From: a virus
Strand: one strand, 5' to 3'
IMG/VR virus record: IMGVR_UViG_3300047562_003028
Coordinates: 1-48,261 of that record
DNA length: 48,261 bases
The position numbers and the translations under genes are program-made. Below are positions 10,193-41,447 of the stretch, piece by piece; positions within the stretch are counted from its first letter, which is position 1, and every line of letters begins with the position of its first letter. The notes under the pieces were generated by a model. That model ran no database searches and was not told where the DNA came from. It saw nothing but the letters and a program-made list of their open reading frames with translations.

Positions 10193-11740
10193 ATGACCAT
10201 AAGGAATAGAGAACTATCACAATTTGGATCATTTATTTACATTGACGATCCATCTCGTGATGTTGCCATTACAACAGAGTCAACTCCTTATATTGGCATT
10301 GGAACAACAAATCCACAATATAAGCTTGATGTCAATGGAAGTACCAGTATTTCTGGCATTCTAACTGTTTCTGGGTCAGTGAATGCAAATCAATTTTTAT
10401 TAAATGGTGATTTGCTGACAAGTGCATCTGTAGATAGATGGCAGTCGGGTTCTGGAAATGATATCTATAGATTGAATGGAAATATAGGTATTGGAGTTTC
10501 GACGATTCCAGAAAAACTTACTGTGTCTGGAAATGTTCAGGCATCAAGATTTATATCAACAGTAACAACAGGAACTGCTCCTTTTACAGTATCTTCCCAA
10601 ACAGAAGTAACAAACTTAAATGCTAGTTTTGTAAGAGGAAAAACTCCACCAAGTGGTGACATAGTAGGAACTTCTGACAGTCAAACATTAACTAACAAGA
10701 CACTAACTTCACCCATTATCAGTAGTGGTGGAATGGTCTTGAGTGGCGCAATTTCTGGATCGACGACCTTGAGACCATCTACAGTTGCAAGTGGAACTCT
10801 AAGTCTTCCAGTGAATGGTGGGACACTAGTATCTACCAATGATACTAGTGTTGTTTCATCTAATATGATTGTAAATGGCACAATTGCCAATATTGACATC
10901 TCCAATACTGCAGCAATTGCATATAGTAAACTGAGTTTATCTAATTCGATTACAAATTCAGATATTTCTGCTTCAGCGTCAATTGCTATATCTAAACTAG
11001 CTGCATCAACAATTTCTGGGGTTTCTTTAGGAAACACTTTAAATAACCTAACTGCAGGGTCTTTTATTAATTTTGATTCTGGGTCAGTCTATAATGGATC
11101 GAGTGCAAGAATTGTATCAGTTGCGGCAACAACAGCAAATACAGCAAATACTGTTGTATCCCGCGATTCTTCTGGAAACTTCAGTGCTGGTGATATATCT
11201 TGCTCGAATTTAAATACGACATTTAACGTATCAGCAAATGCAGTATCTGCAACTACAATATCCGCAAGTTCATTTGTCGGAAATGGAAGTCAATTAACTA
11301 ATGTTCCCGCAAATGTTCCCATTTCCGATGATTCAACAACAAATCAATCATTTTATCCTGTTTTTACTGACACACTAAGTGGAAATTTAACTTCTCTAAC
11401 TGCATCATCATCAAAACTTTCTTTTAATCCATCAACAGGAACTCTTACTGTCATTGATTTAAATTCTACATCAGACTATAACTTAAAAACCAATATTAAA
11501 ACTGTTGAAGATTCTCTTGATAAAATAAATCAAATAAGAGGTGTGTCATTTAATTGGAAGGATACAAATAAACCATCTTATGGTGTAATCGCACAGGAAA
11601 TAGAAAAAGTTTTACCAGAACTAGTTACTGAAGAAAATCATAAGACAGTAAATTATAATGGTTTAATTGGAGTACTCATTGAAGCAGTTAAAGATTTGTC
11701 AAGAGAAGTTGAGGAATTAAAAGATCAACTAAATAAGTAA
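10193..11740 (+). CDS. Tail fibre with C-terminal S74 intramolecular chaperone (515 aa)
   Basis: Residues 1-60 carry IGIGTTNPQYKLDVNGS, the usual start module of S74-linked fibres. The middle is a long beta-rich shaft. Near residue 380 an ISDDSTTNQSFYPVF segment begins, similar to one in the 370-aa fibre. The last 95 residues are a peptidase S74 domain: LNSTSDYNLKTNI, then YGVIAQEIEKVLPELV and NYNGLIGVLIEAVK, ending in a coiled coil. In this family the domain drives trimer folding and then cleaves itself off next to the conserved Ser-Asp. It starts after a good AAGGAG site. Confidence 0.85.
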   Translation: MTIRNRELSQFGSFIYIDDPSRDVAITTESTPYIGIGTTNPQYKLDVNGSTSISGILTVSGSVNANQFLLNGDLLTSASVDRWQSGSGNDIYRLNGNIGIGVSTIPEKLTVSGNVQASRFISTVTTGTAPFTVSSQTEVTNLNASFVRGKTPPSGDIVGTSDSQTLTNKTLTSPIISSGGMVLSGAISGSTTLRPSTVASGTLSLPVNGGTLVSTNDTSVVSSNMIVNGTIANIDISNTAAIAYSKLSLSNSITNSDISASASIAISKLAASTISGVSLGNTLNNLTAGSFINFDSGSVYNGSSARIVSVAATTANTANTVVSRDSSGNFSAGDISCSNLNTTFNVSANAVSATTISASSFVGNGSQLTNVPANVPISDDSTTNQSFYPVFTDTLSGNLTSLTASSSKLSFNPSTGTLTVIDLNSTSDYNLKTNIKTVEDSLDKINQIRGVSFNWKDTNKPSYGVIAQEIEKVLPELVTEENHKTVNYNGLIGVLIEAVKDLSREVEELKDQLNK

Positions 11741-12669: not shown

Positions 12670-13329
12670 ATGTCGTTATTAATCGCAATGCCTTGTTATG
12701 GTGGTTTAGTCAGTGATAAAACTGCAAAAGGTCTTTTCAATTTAGGAAAAGACCTTAGAAGTTCTCAAATTGATCATGGACTTGTTACAATAGCAAATGA
12801 AAGTCTTGTGACAAAAGCAAGATCTAGAATTGCAAACTTCTTTATGAATAATACAGAATATGACTATATTTTGTTTATTGATGCTGATGTAGGTTTTACT
12901 TCAGAAGATGTGTTTAAGTTATTAAATTCGAACAAGGATATGGTCTGCGGAGCATATCCCATGAAAGGAATCCCAATAAGATATAATTATAATATTTCAA
13001 ATCCAGAAGTAAAAGAAGGTGATTTAATTAAGATTGAAAACATTGGATTTGGATTTGCACTTATTCATAGAAAAGTATTTACTTCGATCATCGAAAAGTA
13101 TGGAGAAGAATTGAAGTATTATCCAGCAACAAATAATAGTTCTTTTCCACCAACAGAAAAAGAATATCACAATTCGTATCATTATTTCTTGGAACTTAAA
13201 AAAGATATGGTATATTTGCCCGAAGATTTTTCATTTTTTGAACGGGCAAAGAGCGTTGGATATGAAACTTGGTTAAATAGTAGTATTAGATTATCTCACG
13301 TTGGTTCACACGTTTATCAAGAAGAGTAA
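12670..13329 (+). CDS. Glycosyltransferase, GT-A fold (219 aa)
   Basis: A predicted nucleotide-sugar-dependent glycosyltransferase. It starts with a short strand (SLLIAMPCYGG), has ARSRIANFFMNNTEYDYILF, and then the DAD at about 72-74, the DxD-type metal and nucleotide-sugar site. GAYPMK and GFGFALIHRKVF are typical of the Anp1/GT2-like family seen in cyanophages. An acidic EDFSFFERAKSVGYE segment near the end fits the acceptor-side loop. A good AGGAG site precedes the ATG. It sits four bases upstream of the first YGYFxGG-repeat gene. A role in decorating a virion surface protein is inferred from position only. Confidence 0.8.
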   Translation: MSLLIAMPCYGGLVSDKTAKGLFNLGKDLRSSQIDHGLVTIANESLVTKARSRIANFFMNNTEYDYILFIDADVGFTSEDVFKLLNSNKDMVCGAYPMKGIPIRYNYNISNPEVKEGDLIKIENIGFGFALIHRKVFTSIIEKYGEELKYYPATNNSSFPPTEKEYHNSYHYFLELKKDMVYLPEDFSFFERAKSVGYETWLNSSIRLSHVGSHVYQEE

Positions 13330-13333
13330 GTAA

Positions 13334-14347
13334 ATGGCAATCGGTGTTTTCGGTCTTAAACAATTTTACAGAAAACAATATGGCAATATAATAGAAAGAA
13401 ATCTTTCTCATTGGCCAGAGGGTGCTACTACTGGGTGGTTTGCTGGAGGGATTGACGGAGCTAGTGGAGGTACTACTACTCGCATTGTTCGTCTTAACCA
13501 TTCTAATGATACAGCAAGTCTTCCCGGCAAAAATCTGGTGAATGCAAAACATCGACATCATTCCTTGCAAAGTGCTCTTTACGGATATTTTTGTTCTGGA
13601 GTTTTTACTCCTCCTTTCTTTTTTAGAGGAGAAAATGATCGTATTGATTTTTCAAATGAAACTATAAGCACTCCAGGCAAAACTATGGAAGGGAGAGAAA
13701 ATGGGGCATCAATGTCATCTCGGCATTATGGATTTATGGTTGGTGGAAATGTTCCTAGGCCCGCCCCCCAAGGAGGTCCATTTCCTACCAATGCAGCAAC
13801 TCGTCTTGATTTTTTCAATGAGACTATGGAAAATACGGGTAGGAATATGACATATGCTGCATATGGTATGTTTGGTCTTACTGATAATTTTAATTATGGT
13901 TATGTATTTGGTGGTGCTATTAACTCAAATGTAAGTCGTATTGATTATGCTAGTGAATTATACACTTTACGCAGTGCCAAATTACCAACAAACTTAGTTT
14001 CCGCTACAACAGTTTCAAGCGCAGGTTATGGTTACATTGCTAGTGGAAATACAAATAATGGGCCCGATGATGTAAGCACTATTACTCGTATCGAATTCTC
14101 TACCGAAACTATAAGTAATCCCGGTAATAACTTACCGGGTTCAACTCAGCACGTTGAAGCAGGGAGTAGTCAAACTACATCTTATGGTTATTTTGTCGCC
14201 GGAGATGATCCAGCAGTTGCTTCGAAATCTTATGTTACTCGTCTTGATTTCTCAAATGAAACAATCAGTTCTCCTGGAAAAAACATCCCTGCTAATGGTT
14301 ATGCCCTTAGAGGAGTTTCTGGTGGAGCATCAGTATTACCTTCATAA
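13334..14347 (+). CDS. Six-repeat kelch-like beta-propeller protein (337 aa)
   Basis: After a short N-terminal segment of about 35 residues, six repeats of about 45-55 residues follow. Each has an aromatic-glycine strand (TGWFAGG, YGYFCSG, YGFMVGG, YGYVFGG, YGYIASG, YGYFVAG) and then a TRLDFSNETISxPGKNLP-type segment. This resembles kelch-type blades, and six repeats fit one six-bladed propeller. The protein ends with SGGASVLPS, and the GGAS motif also marks the middle of the two larger relatives at 14408 and 18050. Likely a virion surface adhesin or host-recognition domain. No catalytic residues are recognised. Confidence 0.7.
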   Translation: MAIGVFGLKQFYRKQYGNIIERNLSHWPEGATTGWFAGGIDGASGGTTTRIVRLNHSNDTASLPGKNLVNAKHRHHSLQSALYGYFCSGVFTPPFFFRGENDRIDFSNETISTPGKTMEGRENGASMSSRHYGFMVGGNVPRPAPQGGPFPTNAATRLDFFNETMENTGRNMTYAAYGMFGLTDNFNYGYVFGGAINSNVSRIDYASELYTLRSAKLPTNLVSATTVSSAGYGYIASGNTNNGPDDVSTITRIEFSTETISNPGNNLPGSTQHVEAGSSQTTSYGYFVAGDDPAVASKSYVTRLDFSNETISSPGKNIPANGYALRGVSGGASVLPS

Positions 14348-14348
14348 T

Positions 14349-14356
14349 TATAAATA
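14349..14356 (+). promoter_or_regulatory. Late promoter, TATAAATA
   Basis: Exact T4-type late promoter sequence just after the preceding stop, 51 bases before the ATG at 14408. Confidence 0.8.
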
Positions 14357-14407
14357 TAACTAACAAGAGTTTAAAGACTCAAAACCATTCTATCTTCGAG
14401 ACTATAA

Positions 14408-16225
14408 ATGTTAATATTTTCACTTCAAGATACTAAGATAGAGCAAATAAAAAATATAACATATAGAAATTTTTCTTATTATCCAGAAGTTTCCTTATAT
14501 GGTTACTTTGCTGGTGGCGAAATACCGGGTAGTACCACATTCTGCCAAATAACACGTCTCGATTTTTCCAACGAAACTGTAAGTGCTCCGGGTAATAATT
14601 TACCAGAAGCAAGACGTATTCAATCAACCCTCCAAACCGACAATTATGGTTATTTTTGTGCAGGAATTCCTCAAAATGGACGAGTTAGTCGCATAGACTT
14701 CTCAAACGAAACTATAAGTAATCCTGGAAGAAATACTACAGGCAGATATGGAAAGGCCGCAGTATCTAGTCAAGGACTGTATGGTTATCTTTTTAGTGGA
14801 CTTCCTCTAACTGGAGAAATTTTTCGTTTCGATTTTTCAAGTGAGGAAGATTTTGTAACTGGTAGAAATCTACCATATGGTGCAGAAGGCGCAACTGGAG
14901 TTGAAAGTAGATATTATGGATACTTTGGTGGAGGTTCAACACCAGGTCTTACAGCTACAGTCAGTCGTTTAGATTTTGTTACTGAAAATATTAATCTTCC
15001 TGGGAAAAACCTTCCCAGTGTAAGGTTGTATGCATATAGTGTATCATCTCCCTCATATGGATATTTTGCTGGTAGTCATACCCCATATTTGTCAAATATA
15101 GACCGTCTCGACTTTGCTAATGATTCGATAAGTTCTCCCGGCAATAATTTACCAAATACTAGAGGCTTTGGAGCATCTACACATAATTCATTATTTGGAT
15201 ATTTTGCTGGCGGAAGAACTAGTCCAGATGGGCCCGCAATTATAAACACAATTACTCGTTTGGATTTTACTACCGAAATCGTTAGTGACCCAGGTAAAAA
15301 CTTACCATTTTCACTTTGGCAGAATATTGGAACTTTTGGTGGTGCATCGGTCGCTAAGAGAAATAATACTATTGGTTATTTTATTGGCGGTTCCACACCA
15401 GGAAGAATAAGCACAGTATCACGTCTTGATTTCTCTAATGAAACTAATTCAAATACTAGTAATAATTTACCCACTGCAAGAAGTGGATTAAATGCAGTCT
15501 CCAATAATAACGATAGAGGATATATTGCGGGCGGAACAGAATCGCCCACAGTTTTCTTGGGAACTATAACTCGTTTAGATTATCTAAATGATGTTTCAGT
15601 TGATATTGATGCCAATTTACCTAGTGAAAGATCTGACTTATCATCTATATGGGATCGCAATTATGGTTATTTTGGTGGTGGTGGAGCACCTGGACAAATA
15701 AGTAATATAACTCGTATTGATTTTGCAACAGAACTTACAAATAATCCTGGAACTAATTTACCATTAAACATATCAGGACTGACTGGAACTAAAAGTTTGA
15801 AATATGGTTATTTTGTTGGCGGTTCCACACCAGGACTAATAAGTACGATCACTCGCTTTGATTTCTCTAATGAAATGATAAGCAATCCTGGTAAGAACTT
15901 GCCGGGAGTAAGAGCATTTTTTGCGGCAGTATCTAATCCATCTTATGGATACTTTGGTGGTGGACAAACTCCAACACTTATAAACACAATCACTCGTCTT
16001 GATTTTTCAAATGATACTGTCAGCGACCCTGGAAAGAATTTGCCAATTGGAAGAAGTAACCTAACAGGAACTTCAAACTTATTATATGGTTATTTTGCTG
16101 GTGGAGAAACGCCAGCAATCGTAAGCACAATCAATCGTATTGATTTCTCAACTGAAAATGTCACTGCACCACCAAATTTAACTATCGCAAGAAGCAATTT
16201 TGCAGCAGTATCAAATTCAATCTAA
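14408..16225 (+). CDS. Twelve-repeat double beta-propeller protein (605 aa)
   Basis: A larger relative of the 337-aa protein at 13334. After about 35 residues it has six repeats (YGYFAGGEIPG to FGYFAGGRTSP), then a GGASVAK linker near nucleotide 15340, then six more (IGYFIGGSTPG to YGYFAGGETP). This suggests two six-bladed propellers in tandem. Each repeat carries TRLDFSNETxSxPGxNLP. DNA similarity between repeats is strong in places: the 29 bases at 15989-16017 recur exactly at 19163-19191 in the third propeller gene. Likely a virion adhesin. A GT4-type glycosyltransferase gene follows 24 bases later. Confidence 0.7.
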   Translation: MLIFSLQDTKIEQIKNITYRNFSYYPEVSLYGYFAGGEIPGSTTFCQITRLDFSNETVSAPGNNLPEARRIQSTLQTDNYGYFCAGIPQNGRVSRIDFSNETISNPGRNTTGRYGKAAVSSQGLYGYLFSGLPLTGEIFRFDFSSEEDFVTGRNLPYGAEGATGVESRYYGYFGGGSTPGLTATVSRLDFVTENINLPGKNLPSVRLYAYSVSSPSYGYFAGSHTPYLSNIDRLDFANDSISSPGNNLPNTRGFGASTHNSLFGYFAGGRTSPDGPAIINTITRLDFTTEIVSDPGKNLPFSLWQNIGTFGGASVAKRNNTIGYFIGGSTPGRISTVSRLDFSNETNSNTSNNLPTARSGLNAVSNNNDRGYIAGGTESPTVFLGTITRLDYLNDVSVDIDANLPSERSDLSSIWDRNYGYFGGGGAPGQISNITRIDFATELTNNPGTNLPLNISGLTGTKSLKYGYFVGGSTPGLISTITRFDFSNEMISNPGKNLPGVRAFFAAVSNPSYGYFGGGQTPTLINTITRLDFSNDTVSDPGKNLPIGRSNLTGTSNLLYGYFAGGETPAIVSTINRIDFSTENVTAPPNLTIARSNFAAVSNSI

Positions 16226-16228
16226 ATA
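16221..16228 (+). promoter_or_regulatory. Late promoter, TCTAAATA
   Basis: Overlaps the TAA stop at 16223-16225 and lies 21 bases before the glycosyltransferase ATG at 16250. Confidence 0.6.
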
Positions 16229-16249
16229 AAACACCTATATCATTAACAT

Positions 16250-17191
16250 ATGAAATCTGGAGCAACTGAAAGTTCTTTTTATTATCTTTCACAACATTAC
16301 AATATTCCAAATAATGTTGAAATATCAAGAAACGCTGAAGAACTTGTAAAATCACAAAAACCCATCAAGATACTTTGGGCTCACGATAATTGTGATCAAC
16401 CTATCCATTATCGTCTTCCCGAATTGTCAAAACAAATTGACGCAATTGTTTGCTTATCTTATTGGGAAAGAGAGCAATTTATCAAATACAATCGAGCACC
16501 AGAAGATAAATTGACTGTTGTATATTATGGTTTGGATCCCATGTTTGTTCCCCCAACAAAACCCAAATCAAAGACTGCTATTTTCTTCTCAGCACCACAT
16601 AAGGGTATTACACCACTTCCAAAAATTTGGAAGCAGGTTATTAAAAATCATCCTGATGCAACATTGAAAGTATTTTCTTCAATGTCTCTCTATGAAAATG
16701 CAGGAACTTATGAAAAAGAAACAGGAGAATTTGTTGAGGCAATTAAAGAATTAAGATCTCTTCCAAATGTTCTTTACTCGCCATGCATCCATCGGGAAGA
16801 ATTGCTTTCGCATATAAAGGATGCAGCATTTTTTGTTCATCCAAATGTATGGGAAGAAACTTTTTGCCTCTCTCTTGCAGAAGCAATGGCATGTGGTTGC
16901 TATCCAATCGTAAGTGATATTGGTGCTCTCGGAGAAGTTTCTTTTGGTAGAGGAAAGTACATTCCAATGCTTGGAGAAAACACTCCTGCAGGATGGAAAC
17001 CTTCTCCAAAATTTATCAATGAGTTCGCTCAGGAAGTTTCTAGATGCTTTGATTTCTTTGAAAAAGAACCAGATACATTTTATCAAGCAACTAATGACTT
17101 ATCAAAAATTACCAGAGAATCTTACAATTGGAAAACCTCTGCAGAACTCTGGAATCAAATTGTAGAATATATACTAAATAATAAGAAATGA
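16250..17191 (+). CDS. Glycosyltransferase family 4-like, GT-B fold (313 aa)
   Basis: A predicted retaining glycosyltransferase. The N-terminal half has ILWAHDNCDQP and CLSYWEREQFIK. The C-terminal half has TVVYYGLD, FFSAPHKGI, FVHPNVWEETFCLSLAEAMACG and IVSDIGALGE. The acidic residues in the EETFCLSLAE region correspond to the E-x7-E motif of GT4 enzymes. It is shorter than most GT4 proteins; the missing part appears to be N-terminal. Its stop overlaps the next start as ATGA at 17188-17191, so the two are translationally coupled. It lies between two propeller genes, which suggests those proteins or a shared receptor-like glycan as its target (inference). Confidence 0.8.
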   Translation: MKSGATESSFYYLSQHYNIPNNVEISRNAEELVKSQKPIKILWAHDNCDQPIHYRLPELSKQIDAIVCLSYWEREQFIKYNRAPEDKLTVVYYGLDPMFVPPTKPKSKTAIFFSAPHKGITPLPKIWKQVIKNHPDATLKVFSSMSLYENAGTYEKETGEFVEAIKELRSLPNVLYSPCIHREELLSHIKDAAFFVHPNVWEETFCLSLAEAMACGCYPIVSDIGALGEVSFGRGKYIPMLGENTPAGWKPSPKFINEFAQEVSRCFDFFEKEPDTFYQATNDLSKITRESYNWKTSAELWNQIVEYILNNKK

Positions 17192-18048
17192 ACATGAAAA
17201 ACACTATGCCAAACAATTATGAATCGATTGCTCTTGCAACATCTAAAGAAGTTTTAGATGATGATAATGAGTTTATGTTCAAAGTCCTAAACGAAGCAAA
17301 TCGTTGGACTGAGAGTGAAACCGAACTTGCCCAAGGAAGATCTGATTTTCAGATTGAAAAGTTTATCATTCACGACAACTTCACCATTCCTTCAGCATTT
17401 AAAGCTGCTATTATTAATAGGAGAAGTGTTGCCGAGGGTCTTCTTCAGCAAATCATCGAAGCAAAAAGAGTTGCAAGAGAATTTCATTATAAGTGGGAGG
17501 GAAAAGATAAAACTCAACCAATTTGGTGGAAAACTAGAGAAGGTGGAGAAGAATTGTCTTGGTATGATATTGACGAATTTCACTTCCATAGAATGCTAGA
17601 AAATCTTAATCGTGGATTTAAATCTTCCGTAGAAGAACTTGAGTGTTTTGACAAACTCATTAATCGTTTGGTTGAACTGAATGGAAACAAACTAGTTTCT
17701 AGAGATCAATATAATGAAGACCAACCAAACTATTGGGAAAGAAGACTTGCCAACCAATCACTCGATGATTTACTTGCAGCAAAAACTGGAGTAAATGCTG
17801 GTAATATTCGTTCCATGAGACGCGCAAGTGCTCCAACTGTTCTTACTGATGATGTAAATAGAACAAAGGGAACTTTTGGCGATCCAAACAATCCTCTGGA
17901 TTTCCTATCAAAACTTCAAGAAAATGTTGCTGCTGGTATTGCAGAAATTACTGGATTGGATCATCAACTTCTCTCTGGCGTTGAGCAGAAAGAAGAAAAG
18001 AAACTTACAGGTTCGTTATTTAATCAAGACCTTAAAATAGCAGAGTAA
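17188..18048 (+). CDS. Conserved cyanophage protein, unknown function (286 aa)
   Basis: I do not recognise a characterised family, although proteins of this kind occur in cyanophage structural regions. The sequence looks mostly helical and charged. It has DFQIEKFIIHDNFTIPSAF, then EGLLQQIIEAKRVAREF, a Trp-rich PIWWKTREGGEELSWYDID, and a helical segment with ELECFDKLINRLVELNG. The C-terminus is more flexible. No membrane segment is visible. It is translationally coupled to the upstream glycosyltransferase and ends one base before the third propeller gene, so it may act in assembly or attachment of those proteins. Confidence 0.55.
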   Translation: MNMKNTMPNNYESIALATSKEVLDDDNEFMFKVLNEANRWTESETELAQGRSDFQIEKFIIHDNFTIPSAFKAAIINRRSVAEGLLQQIIEAKRVAREFHYKWEGKDKTQPIWWKTREGGEELSWYDIDEFHFHRMLENLNRGFKSSVEELECFDKLINRLVELNGNKLVSRDQYNEDQPNYWERRLANQSLDDLLAAKTGVNAGNIRSMRRASAPTVLTDDVNRTKGTFGDPNNPLDFLSKLQENVAAGIAEITGLDHQLLSGVEQKEEKKLTGSLFNQDLKIAE

Positions 18049-18049
18049 C

Positions 18050-19990
18050 ATGTCACAATATCTCACTAATCTAACTGGAGATGTATTTGGACTTAATTTT
18101 GTCTATGATAGACTAGTAGACAATATAGAAAATAGAAATACTTTCTATTGGAGAGAGCAACCAATTTATTCTTATTTTAGTGGTGGCCAGACTCCTGGAG
18201 AGATAAGTACTGTCAATCGTCTTGATTTTTCTAATGAAACTGTCACCAATCCAGATAAAAATATAGGATATAATGTACGTCTTCATGCAGGCCTGTCAGC
18301 ATTCAATTATGGATATTTTGTTGGTGGGGTAAGTAGAAATACCGTTTCTCGTTTGGATTATACAAATGAATCAATAAGTCTACCAAACATTAACTTACCT
18401 GCGAATAGGTGGGGTCAAGCACATCTAACTTCAGCAAATTATGGGTGGACTGCTTCTGGTGAAGATGGTGGTCCATGGGGATTCTCCAACCCAGGCCAGA
18501 ACTTCCTAGAACCAGGACCATATAGAAGTAATGTTTTTCGTTTAGATTTTTCTAACGAAACTTTTAATGTACCTGGACAACTTACATTTGAACGAGCTGT
18601 GCAGAATTCGTCAGTTAGTAGTGCAAATTATGGATATATGGCAGGTGGTTATTTGTTTAGACCCACTACACCTCTTAGAGGTGGAGCGGACCAAGCAGAA
18701 AATGATATTTTCCGTTTAGACTTCTTTACAGAAACTGTTTTAAATTTACCCAGTAAATTATCAAATAGTAGGTATTTAATTGCAGGAACCTTTGGTTTAT
18801 TACACGGATACTTTGCGGGTGGTGCTTCTCCGGGACCACAAGGTGGAATTAGATGCACAATTGATAGACTTGATTTCTCCAACGAAACGGTAAGTACCAC
18901 TACTAACTTACCATCAGCTCGATATGGTGCCACAGGAACTCAGAATTCAAATTATGGTTATTTTGGAGGCGGAATCGCAGGAAGTTACTTAAGTACTATA
19001 ACACGTATTGATTTTAATAATGACACTGTAAGTGATCCAGGCGCTGCATTCCCATTGGGTGTGGCAGTCAGTGCTTCAGTTGCTGGTGGAGCATCAGCAC
19101 TTAAAGTTAATAAGAACTATGGTTATTTTGCAGGTGGATTTGCTCCACCACAAATAAGCACTATCACTCGTCTTGATTTTTCAAATGATACGGTAAGCGA
19201 TCCTGGTAAGAACTTAACAACGACAAGAAGTGAATTGGCAGCAGTTGCAAGTAATTATCATGGATATTTTGGTGGTGGTTTTTCTCCCCCACAAATATGC
19301 AATATCACCAGAATTGATTTTGTAAATGAAACTATAAATCAATCATTAGGAAATCTTCCATCTAACAGAAGACTTCTTTCTGCAACAGAAAGTGCATCTT
19401 ATGGTTATTTTGCTGGAGGTTTTAATGCACCTCCAGACAATTATTTGAGTACCATAACACGTTTTGATTTTGGTACAGAAATTGCAACTGACACGCCAAC
19501 AAGATTACCTTTTGGTAGAAGAGAGTTTTGCGCCACTTCAACTAACATCTATGCTTTCTTTGGTGGTGGATTTAATACAACGACTTTCTATAACACGATT
19601 ACTCGTTTAGATTTTTCAAACGAAACAATTAGCAATCCAGGCAAAAATCTACCTTCTTCTAGAAGAAATCTTGCAGTAATGGCAAGTACTGTTTATGGAT
19701 TTTTTGGAGGTGGGGAATCTCCCGCGCCTACACCTTTCTCAATTAATACCATTACAAGACTTGATTTTGCTAGTGAAACTATTAGCACACCAGGAGGTGC
19801 ATTTACAACATCTAGAAGAAGTTTGGCAGCAACTGCAAGTAGAACTTATGGTTATTGGGCTGGTGGATTTAGTCCACCATATATCAGTACAGTCACACGT
19901 CTCGATTTCTCTAACGAAGTTGTTAGTGAACCAGGAAAGACTCTACCATCTGCAAGAGGAAGTTTCACTGCACTAGCAAATTCAAACTAA
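18050..19990 (+). CDS. Twelve-repeat double beta-propeller protein (646 aa)
   Basis: The third member of the YGYFxGG-repeat group. About 45 N-terminal residues are followed by six repeats (YSYFSGGQTPG to YGYFGGGIAG), a GGASALK linker near 19084-19098, and six more repeats (YGYFAGGFAPP to YGYWAGGFSPP). Many repeats contain TRLDFSNETVSxPGKNLP. The second block is more uniform than the first, with GGF(A/S)PP loops, suggesting recent spread of repeats inside the gene. It probably forms two six-bladed propellers on the virion surface. Repeat 3 (YGWTASGEDGG) and its long loop are the most divergent. Confidence 0.7.
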   Translation: MSQYLTNLTGDVFGLNFVYDRLVDNIENRNTFYWREQPIYSYFSGGQTPGEISTVNRLDFSNETVTNPDKNIGYNVRLHAGLSAFNYGYFVGGVSRNTVSRLDYTNESISLPNINLPANRWGQAHLTSANYGWTASGEDGGPWGFSNPGQNFLEPGPYRSNVFRLDFSNETFNVPGQLTFERAVQNSSVSSANYGYMAGGYLFRPTTPLRGGADQAENDIFRLDFFTETVLNLPSKLSNSRYLIAGTFGLLHGYFAGGASPGPQGGIRCTIDRLDFSNETVSTTTNLPSARYGATGTQNSNYGYFGGGIAGSYLSTITRIDFNNDTVSDPGAAFPLGVAVSASVAGGASALKVNKNYGYFAGGFAPPQISTITRLDFSNDTVSDPGKNLTTTRSELAAVASNYHGYFGGGFSPPQICNITRIDFVNETINQSLGNLPSNRRLLSATESASYGYFAGGFNAPPDNYLSTITRFDFGTEIATDTPTRLPFGRREFCATSTNIYAFFGGGFNTTTFYNTITRLDFSNETISNPGKNLPSSRRNLAVMASTVYGFFGGGESPAPTPFSINTITRLDFASETISTPGGAFTTSRRSLAATASRTYGYWAGGFSPPYISTVTRLDFSNEVVSEPGKTLPSARGSFTALANSN

Positions 19991-20019: not shown

Positions 20020-20697
20020 ATGAATGACATTCTTTCAAATGTATTAATACAACCCAAAGTATTAACACCCGATGCGATTGATTTTTTAATTGATCATGCG
20101 AAAAAATCAAATAAAGAGCAAATGGGAGTCTTTGATGGTGAAAAGGCAAATTCTAGCCTTGATAATCCAGACATCGAAGACCACCCTGCAAGAATTGATT
20201 TAGAATCAAGAAATGCTAAGTGTGCAGATATTGAAACAATTATTCCTGAGATTAAAGATCTTTATAGCAATATTGTCAAAAATATAATTAATCCATTTTA
20301 TGGATTCCAAATTAAAGATAGTGAAATGCCACAACTATTAGTTTATGAACCAGGAGGTCACTATAAACCTCATTTTGATGCTGTGGCAAAATGGAAAAAT
20401 CCAGATGGAACTATGATTTGGAAAAAATCTATAGATAGAGATTTATCCACTGTTCTTTTTCTTAATGATGACTTTGAGGGGGGTGATTTTGTATTTCCAG
20501 ATTTGAGAGTAAGAATTCGTCCAGAACCAGGTCTATTAGTTTGTTTCCCTTCATCTCAATTTTACTTGCATAAAGTTGAACCAGTAATTTCTGGAACTAG
20601 ATTTAGTATGGTCAACTGGATGACGGTCGTTGGATTTAAAACAAAGGAAGAACAGGATAAAGAAATTTCAGATAAATATGGTATAAAAGTAGTATAA
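20020..20697 (+). CDS. Prolyl-4-hydroxylase-like 2OG-Fe(II) oxygenase (225 aa)
   Basis: Predicted dioxygenase of the P4Hc group. The iron ligands are His118 and Asp120 (YKPHFDAV) and His184 (YLHKVEP). Arg194 in GTRFSMVNW is the likely 2-oxoglutarate ligand. DLSTVLFLNDDFEGGDFVFP is the typical core after the HxD. The N-terminal third (LTPDAIDFLIDHAKKS) matches the helical cap of this family. It follows the third propeller gene and precedes a fibre-assembly-like gene. Protein hydroxylation of a virion component is possible, but the collagen-like repeats here contain almost no proline, so the target is not obvious. Confidence 0.8.
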   Translation: MNDILSNVLIQPKVLTPDAIDFLIDHAKKSNKEQMGVFDGEKANSSLDNPDIEDHPARIDLESRNAKCADIETIIPEIKDLYSNIVKNIINPFYGFQIKDSEMPQLLVYEPGGHYKPHFDAVAKWKNPDGTMIWKKSIDRDLSTVLFLNDDFEGGDFVFPDLRVRIRPEPGLLVCFPSSQFYLHKVEPVISGTRFSMVNWMTVVGFKTKEEQDKEISDKYGIKVV

Positions 20698-20701
20698 AAA
20701 A

Positions 20702-21364
20702 ATGGCACAACTCCTCAAGCACTATTTTTTCAACAGAGACACCAAAACTTATTCCGTAGACAATAAGTTTGGTCTAATGGTTCCCGATATAAAGGGATTG
20801 GAAATCATTCATAATATTACGGATGAAAATGATATTCCATGTTGCTTGTCAACATGCCCGGAATATTTTGAATATAGCAGCACAGTATCTGCAGAGAGAC
20901 TTCAAGAATTAGAGAGCGATCCAAATATTACTATCATATCGTCAGATGTCTCTGCAGAAGATGAAACTTCTTATGATGTTGTTTATCAGGAAGCATATAA
21001 TCTAGAAGAAACAGAAGGTCTCTCGATTATTGCCCAACAAGAATGGGATACTATTGTAGATGCATATGATGCAAGACAACTTCAAAAAAGACTTGAAGTT
21101 CTCAGAAGTGTGCGTGACGAAATCCTTTCATCTAGTGATTGGGTAGTAGTTAAATCACTTGAAAAAGGAAGTGTTTTGTCTACTAGTTTTAAAGATTGGA
21201 GACAATCTTTAAGAGACCTTCCAAGTGAGGAAATTTTCCCTTCAGAATTACCACCAGTTCATTCAGAAGTTGGGGGTGATGCTAAGGTACTAAGTGCTTA
21301 TGTTCGTTGGAATGAAGTAACTTCTATTCCAATGATTAACGATCCTATTACTACAGCAGAATAA
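20702..21364 (+). CDS. Tail assembly chaperone-like protein (220 aa)
   Basis: The C-terminal half contains RSVRDEILSSSDWVVVKSLEKG and FKDWRQSLRDLPSE. This spacing of R-x2-R-D-x2-L, D-W and W-R-Q-x-L-R-D-L-P is typical of phage tail-fibre assembly chaperones (Caudo_TAP/Tfa-type proteins). The N-terminal half has a YFFNRDTKTYSVDN beta start and an acidic middle. Proteins of this kind help fold or attach the receptor-binding tip of fibres. It starts four bases after the oxygenase stop. The client could be one of the fibre or propeller proteins nearby. Moderate confidence; motif-based. Confidence 0.6.
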   Translation: MAQLLKHYFFNRDTKTYSVDNKFGLMVPDIKGLEIIHNITDENDIPCCLSTCPEYFEYSSTVSAERLQELESDPNITIISSDVSAEDETSYDVVYQEAYNLEETEGLSIIAQQEWDTIVDAYDARQLQKRLEVLRSVRDEILSSSDWVVVKSLEKGSVLSTSFKDWRQSLRDLPSEEIFPSELPPVHSEVGGDAKVLSAYVRWNEVTSIPMINDPITTAE

Positions 21365-36255: not shown

Positions 36256-37368
36256 ATGTCTACACTCCTTTCAACATTTTTAGAATCATCATTTTCAGGT
36301 AGTCAGGGGGTCCTTGGTGGTCAAGGTACTCAAGGTAGACAAGGACTTATTGGTCTTCAGGGTACTCAAGGTATTCAGGGAATTAGTTTCAATAAAACTA
36401 GCAATACTTTTACTGCAACACAAGGTCAAACTACTTTTAATGTAACGTATGTTGTTGGATATGCTGATGTATATTTAAATGGTGCTCGTTTAAGTTCTAG
36501 TGATTATGTTGCAACAAATGGAACTTCTATTGTTCTAAGTAGTGGCGCAGATGCTGGTGATATTATAGATGTAATCAGTTTTACTGCCGCAGGACCTCAA
36601 GGTATTCAGGGCATTCCCGGACCTGCAGGAACTCAGGGTTTAAATGGAGCATTTGCTGGCCAAGGTATTCAGGGTACTGCTGGTGTAAGTTTCAATAAAT
36701 CAGCAACAACATATACCGCAACACAAGGGCAAACTACTTTCTCAGCAACTTATACGGTAGGGTTTGTTGAAATTTATTTGAATGGTGTTCGCTTATCCGA
36801 TACTGAATATACTGCATCAAATGGCACTTCTATAGTTCTTTCATCTGGCGCAAGTGTAGGTGATATTATCGATATTATTGCATTTACGGGTGGTGTACTA
36901 GGAACTCAAGGCATACAGGGAACATCTGGTTCATCATCAGTGACAGTTTCTAACGACACTTCAACTAATGCAACAAGATACATTCTTTTTGATGACATTA
37001 CATCAGGAACTGTTTCTACAGTAAATGTTTCATCATCAAAATTAACTTTTAATCCTTCAACTGGCCAACTCACATCAGTTGATTTCAATTCAACATCAGA
37101 TCAAAATCTGAAAGAAAATATTGTAAGTCTATCAGATTCTATTGATATTTTGAATAAAATTAATCCAGTTAAATTTAATTGGAAAGATAATGGGAAAGTA
37201 AGTTATGGCGTCATTGCACAAGAACTGGAAAAGATTTTGCCAGAACTGGTAAGTGATGTAGGGGAATACAAATCCGTTTCATATGTTCAACTAATCGCTT
37301 TCTTAATAGATGTGGTAAAAAAACACGAGGAAGAAATCAATTTACTTAAGAATTCAATAAATAGTTGA
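36256..37368 (+). CDS. Collagen-like tail fibre with S74 chaperone (370 aa)
   Basis: A compact relative of the long fibre. A short collagen-like stretch (GTQGRQGLIGLQGTQGIQG) leads into two VYLNGARLSSSDYVATNG-type modules joined by another short Gly-X-Y stretch. Then come a DTSTNATRYILFDD segment similar to that in the 515-aa fibre, and a C-terminal S74 domain (FNSTSDQNLKENI, YGVIAQELEKILPELV) followed by a coiled coil. In this family the domain folds the trimer and then cleaves itself at the Ser-Asp site. It combines parts of the 1513-aa and 515-aa fibres in one short gene. Confidence 0.8.
   Translation: MSTLLSTFLESSFSGSQGVLGGQGTQGRQGLIGLQGTQGIQGISFNKTSNTFTATQGQTTFNVTYVVGYADVYLNGARLSSSDYVATNGTSIVLSSGADAGDIIDVISFTAAGPQGIQGIPGPAGTQGLNGAFAGQGIQGTAGVSFNKSATTYTATQGQTTFSATYTVGFVEIYLNGVRLSDTEYTASNGTSIVLSSGASVGDIIDIIAFTGGVLGTQGIQGTSGSSSVTVSNDTSTNATRYILFDDITSGTVSTVNVSSSKLTFNPSTGQLTSVDFNSTSDQNLKENIVSLSDSIDILNKINPVKFNWKDNGKVSYGVIAQELEKILPELVSDVGEYKSVSYVQLIAFLIDVVKKHEEEINLLKNSINS
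37356..37363 (+). promoter_or_regulatory. Late promoter, AATAAATA
   Basis: Inside the last codons of the 370-aa gene, followed by an ACTATAAAAA stretch before the ATG at 37383. Confidence 0.5.
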
Positions 37369-40676: not shown

Positions 40677-41447
40677 ATGACTAGAGCTAGGAATTTAGGA
40701 TCAGTTGGGGGTATATCATACCTTTCTGCTATTGGTAATAAGATTGGTGTTGGAATTACAATCCCAACCTCAACTTTTCATGTTCAAGGAGATGTTTCGA
40801 TTGCTTCCACTGTTGGAATTGGAACTAAGATAGATATTGTCCCATATGATAGTTTAAGTAACGGAACTTTGTCGTTTGAAGGTTCCGCTGGTCAGTTATT
40901 CTCTATTACAAATAATCTTACAAGTGGATCTATTTTTTCAGTTAATGATGTCTCGGGCATTCCAAGTATTGATGTAGATGCAAATGGAACTGTAGAAATT
41001 GCACCTTTTGGTGGAAATTTGGGAGTAGGAACAACAAATCCAACATCAAAAATTCATATAATAGGCGATGCTCTTTTAACTGGTATTATTACATGCACAG
41101 GCGCAACGGTAAATGGTAATGTTACTTGTGTCGATTTAAATTCAACTAGTGACATAAACCTTAAGGAAAATATTCAAACAATTGATAATGCATTAACTCT
41201 TGTTCAAGATATTCGTGGAGTTAAATTTGAATGGAAAGAAAACCATAAACCATCTATTGGTGTCATTGCACAAGAAGTTGAGAAAATTCTCCCAGAACTA
41301 GTTACTACTGCCGAAACAAAAACTGTAAACTATAATGGACTAATTGGACTTCTCATAGAATCAGTAAAAGAACTAAAAAATGAGAATGATCTATTAAAGG
41401 CAGAAATTTCAGAAATTAAACATAGTTTATCCCAAATGGGTTCTTAG
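40677..41447 (+). CDS. Short tail fibre with S74 chaperone (256 aa)
   Basis: Two head-type motifs (VGVGITIPTSTFHVQGD and LGVGTTNPTSKIHIIGD) frame a short beta region, then LNSTSDINLKENI starts an S74 domain with IGVIAQEVEKILPELV, NYNGLIGLLIESVK and a C-terminal coiled coil. In this family the domain assists trimer folding and is released by self-cleavage at the Ser-Asp site. It is the last late gene before the small-gene cluster. Duplicated heads suggest fusion of two fibre starts. Confidence 0.8.
   Translation: MTRARNLGSVGGISYLSAIGNKIGVGITIPTSTFHVQGDVSIASTVGIGTKIDIVPYDSLSNGTLSFEGSAGQLFSITNNLTSGSIFSVNDVSGIPSIDVDANGTVEIAPFGGNLGVGTTNPTSKIHIIGDALLTGIITCTGATVNGNVTCVDLNSTSDINLKENIQTIDNALTLVQDIRGVKFEWKENHKPSIGVIAQEVEKILPELVTTAETKTVNYNGLIGLLIESVKELKNENDLLKAEISEIKHSLSQMGS

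Follow-up and report, generated by a model that had tools for sequence, protein, structure and literature searches.

Three proteins encoded between the tail-fibre genes of the window (the whole 48-kb virus record that was analysed, 48,261 nucleotides) consist of an N-terminal tag followed by one or two blocks of six kelch repeats, and comparison with related phages shows that whole propellers appear to be replaced as units, at the tag, at the seam between propellers and at the gene end. We read proteins A (337 aa), B (605 aa) and C (646 aa; Table 1) as a tail-associated, adhesin-like trio with exchangeable recognition modules, and we put the probability of this reading at about 60%. The window carries tail-fibre genes and has cyanophage-like relatives; the source virus is marine, probably with a cyanobacterial host.

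Table 1. Features of the propeller genes and their neighbours in the window
Feature	Position	Strand	Evidence
Probable glycosyltransferase (weak family evidence), upstream of A	12670..13329	+	phrog_34859 E=5e-6; phrog_1574 E=4e-30; Pfam below cut-off; 95% identical in L009
Propeller protein A, 337 aa: tag helix and one six-bladed kelch propeller	13334..14347	+	6 repeats; AF2; Foldseek; phrog_19111
Class A tag (GVFGL..FYRKQ...WPE), helix 8-20	13334..13429	+	sequence, AF2 model
GGASV at A C-terminus, on and after closing strand 326-330	14321..14335	+	sequence, AF2 model
Late-promoter-like NATAAATA before gene B	14349..14356	+	consensus match only
Propeller protein B, 605 aa: tag and two six-bladed kelch propellers	14408..16225	+	12 repeats; AF2; Foldseek
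Class B tag (IFSL...EQIKN...), helix 6-19	14408..14497	+	sequence, AF2 model
B propeller 1 (repeats 1-6)	14498..15349	+	repeat count, AF2 model
GGASV seam of B	15338..15370	+	end of closing strand 307-311, then low-confidence linker 313-319 (AF2)
B propeller 2 (repeats 7-12)	15371..16222	+	repeat count, AF2 model
Glycosyltransferase (Glycos_transf_1) between B and C	16250..17191	+	PF00534 45 bits, cut-off 26.4; phrog_2170
phrog_1409 protein between B and C	17188..18048	+	95% identical in L009 and L028
Propeller protein C, 646 aa: tag and two six-bladed kelch propellers	18050..19990	+	12 repeats; Pfam
Class C tag (GDVFGL..VYD...)	18050..18166	+	sequence
C propeller 1, apparently exchanged	18167..19099	+	44% identical to L009, 52% to L028; tag and propeller 2 79-82%
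GGASA seam of C	19085..19117	+	sequence; L009 DNA comparison
C propeller 2, conserved	19118..19987	+	80-82% identical to L009 and L028
2OG-Fe(II) oxygenase downstream of C	20020..20697	+	PF13640 59.7 bits
Tail-fibre assembly protein (Phage_tail_APC, phrog_4912)	20702..21364	+	family matches

Each block of six repeats is predicted to form a kelch propeller

The repeats follow the consensus R..LAAVS....YGYFxGG...(variable)...TI.RLDFSNETVS.PG.NLP, which is a kelch repeat. In protein C, the Pfam profiles PF24681 (59.8 bits, cut-off 50) and Kelch_3 PF13415 (48.4 bits, cut-off 22) both pass. In protein B, PF13418 passes (29.0 bits, cut-off 21.6) and PF24681 falls below its cut-off of 50 at 43.1 bits, and in protein A we found no kelch match by Pfam profile. 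We used AlphaFold models of B (pLDDT 85.4, with a pTM of 0.52 that leaves the placement of its two domains relative to each other uncertain) and of A (pLDDT 84.6, pTM 0.85); the kelch assignment of C comes from Pfam and the repeat count. Both models are read as closed rings of six four-stranded blades, with blade counts derived from strand order and fold matches, and the double glycine after strand 2 is present in the YGYFxGG of the repeats, at positions of low entropy. By Foldseek, the B model matches six-bladed kelch domains of the KLHL12 and KEAP1 type with a target-normalised TM-score (TMt) of up to 0.93, and the A model matches six-bladed kelch domains at TMt 0.83-0.89. A sequence search of the PDB with B returned nothing useful, and fold comparison alone gave matches. 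The models start with a helix, followed by a strand equivalent to kelch strand 2 of blade 1; by analogy with the closure of known kelch domains, the far end of each block would supply the missing strand 1 of blade 1. Sequence, Pfam, AlphaFold and Foldseek all agree with the sequence-only reading of this DNA, which had proposed a six-bladed propeller as the unit.

Two places in the repeat vary most: the 2-3 loop, which has a length of 1-28 and reaches 3.8 bits, and two residues of the 4-1 loop (3.7 bits). They correspond to the BC and DA loops of KLHL20, which give the substrate surface its shape (PMC6720452); thus, variation peaks in the loops of the kelch ligand face.

All three proteins match PHROG 19111, a family without assigned function, over most of their length (E=2e-53 for A, 4e-142 for B and 4e-122 for C), and hypothetical proteins of Synechococcus phage S-SKS1 are homologous, with the same tags and repeats. 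The earlier description of the family as an undescribed class is therefore right insofar as the homologous family lacks an assigned function, but the fold itself is already known. In S-SKS1 (L051, NC_020851.1 188000-208007), two of the three propeller genes are split, into 3+9 and 9+3 repeats, by frame changes near short homopolymers that reflect either sequencing error or decay. We found no relative among GTDB genome contigs in one scan with the family alignment and no match among viral contigs scanned with protein A alone, and the records that matched the propellers in tblastn do not include S-SCSM2R, which is related at another gene of the window.

Repeat numbers are mostly multiples of six, and GGAS marks a subset of seams

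When we counted repeats with a profile trained on the propeller family itself, on which the counts depend, the repeat number was divisible by six in 107 of 118 complete non-redundant IMG/VR relatives (6 to 36 repeats), as compared to about one sixth expected. Twelve repeats are present in 86 relatives, 18 in nine and 24 in nine, there is one relative each with 6, 30 and 36, and 11 are misfits. The spacing at every sixth repeat has a mean of 62 residues (5th percentile 54), as compared to 48.5 elsewhere. The six-repeat periodicity is far above chance. Among the exceptions, a frameshift splits L103, both L061 (6+4) and L040 (7 repeats, contig of 2.1 kb) have the look of collapsed repeats, and L019 has 5+6 repeats. 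L049 is very divergent, with irregular repeat spacing and 17-23 repeats detected, and either the six-block rule or the profile may fail here. One propeller protein (L041 14045-16654) has about 240 extra C-terminal residues past its two propellers.

The sequence-only reading had described A as six YGYFxGG repeats ending in GGASV, and B and C as six repeats, a GGAS[VA] linker and six more; repeat counts and coordinates confirm both descriptions. GGAS follows repeat 6 in B (from 15338, residues 311-314) and in C (from 19085, residue 346). In A, it begins at residue 330, eight residues from the C-terminus, and GGASV spans residues 330-334. The C-terminal ends of B and C do not carry GGAS, and an extra GGAS at 18818, within repeat 5 of C, belongs to a YFAGG motif and has nothing to do with the seam. 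Because of the strand and the low-confidence linker in the B model (Table 1), we take GGAS to end the closing strand and to start a flexible linker.

GGAS was also considered as a universal seam marker and rejected. Of the 86 two-propeller seams, 40 carry it, or 66 when GGxS is counted too. It is missing from all 54 seams in longer proteins (three propellers or more) and from all 107 C-termini counted, and turns up in 3 of the 1235 remaining spacings. Thus, relatives have the non-random repeat numbers expected of a six-repeat unit, but the GGAS boundary expected with them is found at fewer than half of the two-propeller seams. By sequence comparison, GGAS appears to be the seam mark of one clade, not of the whole family.

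Propellers appear to be replaced as units

In close relatives, the tag, the flanks and one propeller are common (80-100% identical), whereas the other propeller is 35-50% identical. L009 has the gene order of the window at 80-85% DNA identity; four of the flanking proteins are 91-95% identical and two others 62-80%. The 85% DNA synteny ends at 13429, at the end of the A tag, and in L009 the A slot is taken by a protein with two propellers, the first of them 40% identical. At gene C, the tag and second propeller are 79-80% identical to those of L009 and the first propeller 44%; DNA identity with L009 returns at 18990, shortly before the seam. In L013/L084, the first propeller is ~99% and the second ~44% identical, and L013/L075 and L009/L066 are further swap pairs; DNA flanking these three is mostly 93-97% identical, with 84-93% in L009/L066. 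In the swap pairs other than window/L009, one propeller is ~97-99% and the other ~42-51% identical, and flanking DNA is mostly ~88-97% identical. Nor are propellers tied to one tag or position: they reappear under others at 94%, 89% and 86% identity.

In an alignment scan without an imposed block register, we found that 37 of 3828 pairs are clear mosaics. Internal breakpoints lie 15 or fewer residues from the seam in 17 of 26 cases, in 10 unconnected groups, and away from it in nine, in metagenome contigs where repeats can be mis-assembled. The clustering at seams has a binomial p of ~8e-16, which is too small because pairs were treated as independent.

With data that are largely metagenome contigs, and with a few off-six counts (L061 and L040) that resemble repeat collapse, the apparent swaps might mostly be assembly chimeras, or else ordinary fast divergence of one propeller. 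However, identity falls from ~99% to ~40% at the seam and recovers after the swapped propeller, and the unconnected groups of mosaics also speak against an artefact, which we regard as very improbable. The same swap arrangement is seen in several assemblies (L075/L076/L077). Because partners are several per cent apart in their flanks, each comparison is of two strains.

Three classes of N-terminal tag accompany the propellers

The N-termini sort into three classes, A (GVFGL..VY.KQ), B (IFSL.EV..EQ) and C (DVFGL..VYD.Q). Across eight non-redundant clusters with ample flanks on both sides (six three-gene and two two-gene) and many partial loci, three was the largest number of propeller genes found at a locus, and a trio usually has one of each tag class. 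A search with the tag profile matched no non-propeller protein. In 54 of 193 cases (shuffled mean 2.2), a block has its nearest counterpart in another protein of the same contig; for tags this holds in 1 of 85 cases, indicating that tags are inherited separately from propellers.

A tag-like segment, WPES..GY, reappears at inner seams of L030 and L033, which supports the idea that multi-propeller genes were built by tandem addition of units. The sequence-only reading had seen the larger proteins as an ancestral fusion of two single-propeller genes. The tandem-built look of multi-propeller genes agrees with part of this proposal, but gene A would be better read as a two-propeller gene that has lost one propeller than as an ancestral single-propeller gene, because protein A ends in seam sequence and the syntenic slot of L009 holds two propellers. 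This terminal seam sequence is found at none of 107 other C-termini, and we saw no remnant of a second propeller downstream of gene A. In a tree of propeller blocks, which has many long branches and weak forks, first and second propellers are not separated; thus, a single ancestral fusion is not readable from the tree.

Genes and motifs around the propellers

Family matches of the neighbouring genes (Table 1) confirm the earlier observation that propeller genes are interleaved with glycosyltransferases. In relatives (L010 9170-9997; L019 6298-7815; neighbour scan), sulfotransferase, FkbM methyltransferase and one carbamoyltransferase gene lie beside propeller genes, and these neighbours suggest a surface-modification set. 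The late-promoter-like NATAAATA is found 14 times on the + strand and once on the - strand (e.g. 1569, 9266, 14349, 22425, 26019, 36179), with several copies just upstream of tail genes. Three tail-fibre-like proteins of the window (10193-11740, 36256-37368, 40677-41447) match the same tail/baseplate PHROGs and have common C-terminal segments, which suggests another repeated module.

Discussion

We infer the tail adhesin role from the gene neighbourhood, the loop variability and the domain exchange; the virion location, the host binding and the label 'phage surface', which had been attached to these propellers earlier, are likewise presumptive. The propeller genes adjoin a tail-fibre assembly gene and lie between tail-fibre genes. 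In the mechanism that we propose, each protein would be docked by its tag at a separate site of the virion, on the tail, and the ligand face that the 2-3 and 4-1 loops form on the kelch propeller would bind a host cell-surface structure. Homologous recombination at the conserved seams would exchange complete propellers, so that recognition would change while the fold is kept intact. Still more tentatively, and at slightly under even odds, the genes may form combinatorial adhesin cassettes, in which three tagged docking sites carry one to six six-bladed kelch propellers in a row, all interchangeable and shuffled at seams between sites and between phages.

The neighbouring modifying enzymes allow a role other than that of an adhesin. 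The propellers might be a glycan-bearing or particle-binding decoration of the virion that is hydroxylated and glycosylated by the neighbouring enzymes and varies for shielding or loose adhesion, not for receptor choice. In many relatives, genes for a glycosyltransferase, 2OG oxygenase, sulfotransferase or FkbM methyltransferase separate the propeller genes, which such a role would account for, and kelch domains need no enzymatic site to serve in this way; however, 2OG oxygenases are common elsewhere in cyanophages too and may have other targets, and variability concentrated in ligand-face loops fits recognition better, so we consider decoration unlikely. Poxvirus kelch proteins act within the host cell, and their presence among the BFVD structural matches raises the idea that the phage proteins act off the virion, inside or outside the infected cell, for example by blocking host factors or competing phages. 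The position of the genes among tail-fibre and tail-assembly genes argues against such a role, as do three constant tags with swapped domains, which fit docking on a particle, and we find it quite improbable. Some Pfam kelch models are named 'Galactose oxidase, central domain', and the propellers could on that ground be enzymes akin to galactose oxidase or sialidase, which would cleave or oxidise sugars of the host surface. Yet galactose oxidase is a seven-bladed kelch protein with a copper site, and judged on blade count the phage proteins, with six blades per unit, fall outside that group; non-enzymatic kelch domains with six blades give the best fold matches, and the conserved positions (YGYF.GG, RLDFSNET) look structural. 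We give an enzymatic role hardly any weight.

Taken together, these data favour the adhesin-like trio. To our knowledge, host-range change by domain exchange is known in phage fibres, but not with a complete propeller as the unit, and we found no earlier description of phage kelch adhesins in the open-licence papers searched. Propeller swapping suggests a modular way of changing the attachment target of a virus. The modulus of six and the breakpoints at seams provide a rule for reading recognition modules directly from marine viral metagenomes. Through the cultured phage S-SKS1, the way in which cyanophages keep track of their hosts also becomes open to experiment.

The phage propellers resemble known kelch domains (KLHL12, KEAP1, KLHL20 and the designed SAKe6) in their six blades, the GG after strand 2 and closure by a strand from the far end. 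In contrast to cellular kelch proteins, they lack a BTB or BACK domain, have a short tag, reach up to six tandem propellers and are 12-20% identical in sequence. Kelch-like proteins of the jumbo phages PhiPA3, PS119XW and Noxifer, some of them annotated as virion structural proteins, have similar predicted folds at low sequence identity. In T-even gp38 tip adhesins (T2, PP01, S16), hypervariable recognition segments lie between constant glycine-rich motifs (PMC12892980). The propeller proteins also alternate variable recognition parts with constant glycine-containing joints; however, their fold is a kelch propeller and not a polyglycine sandwich, and where gp38 varies loops on that sandwich, the phage propellers appear to exchange whole six-bladed units.
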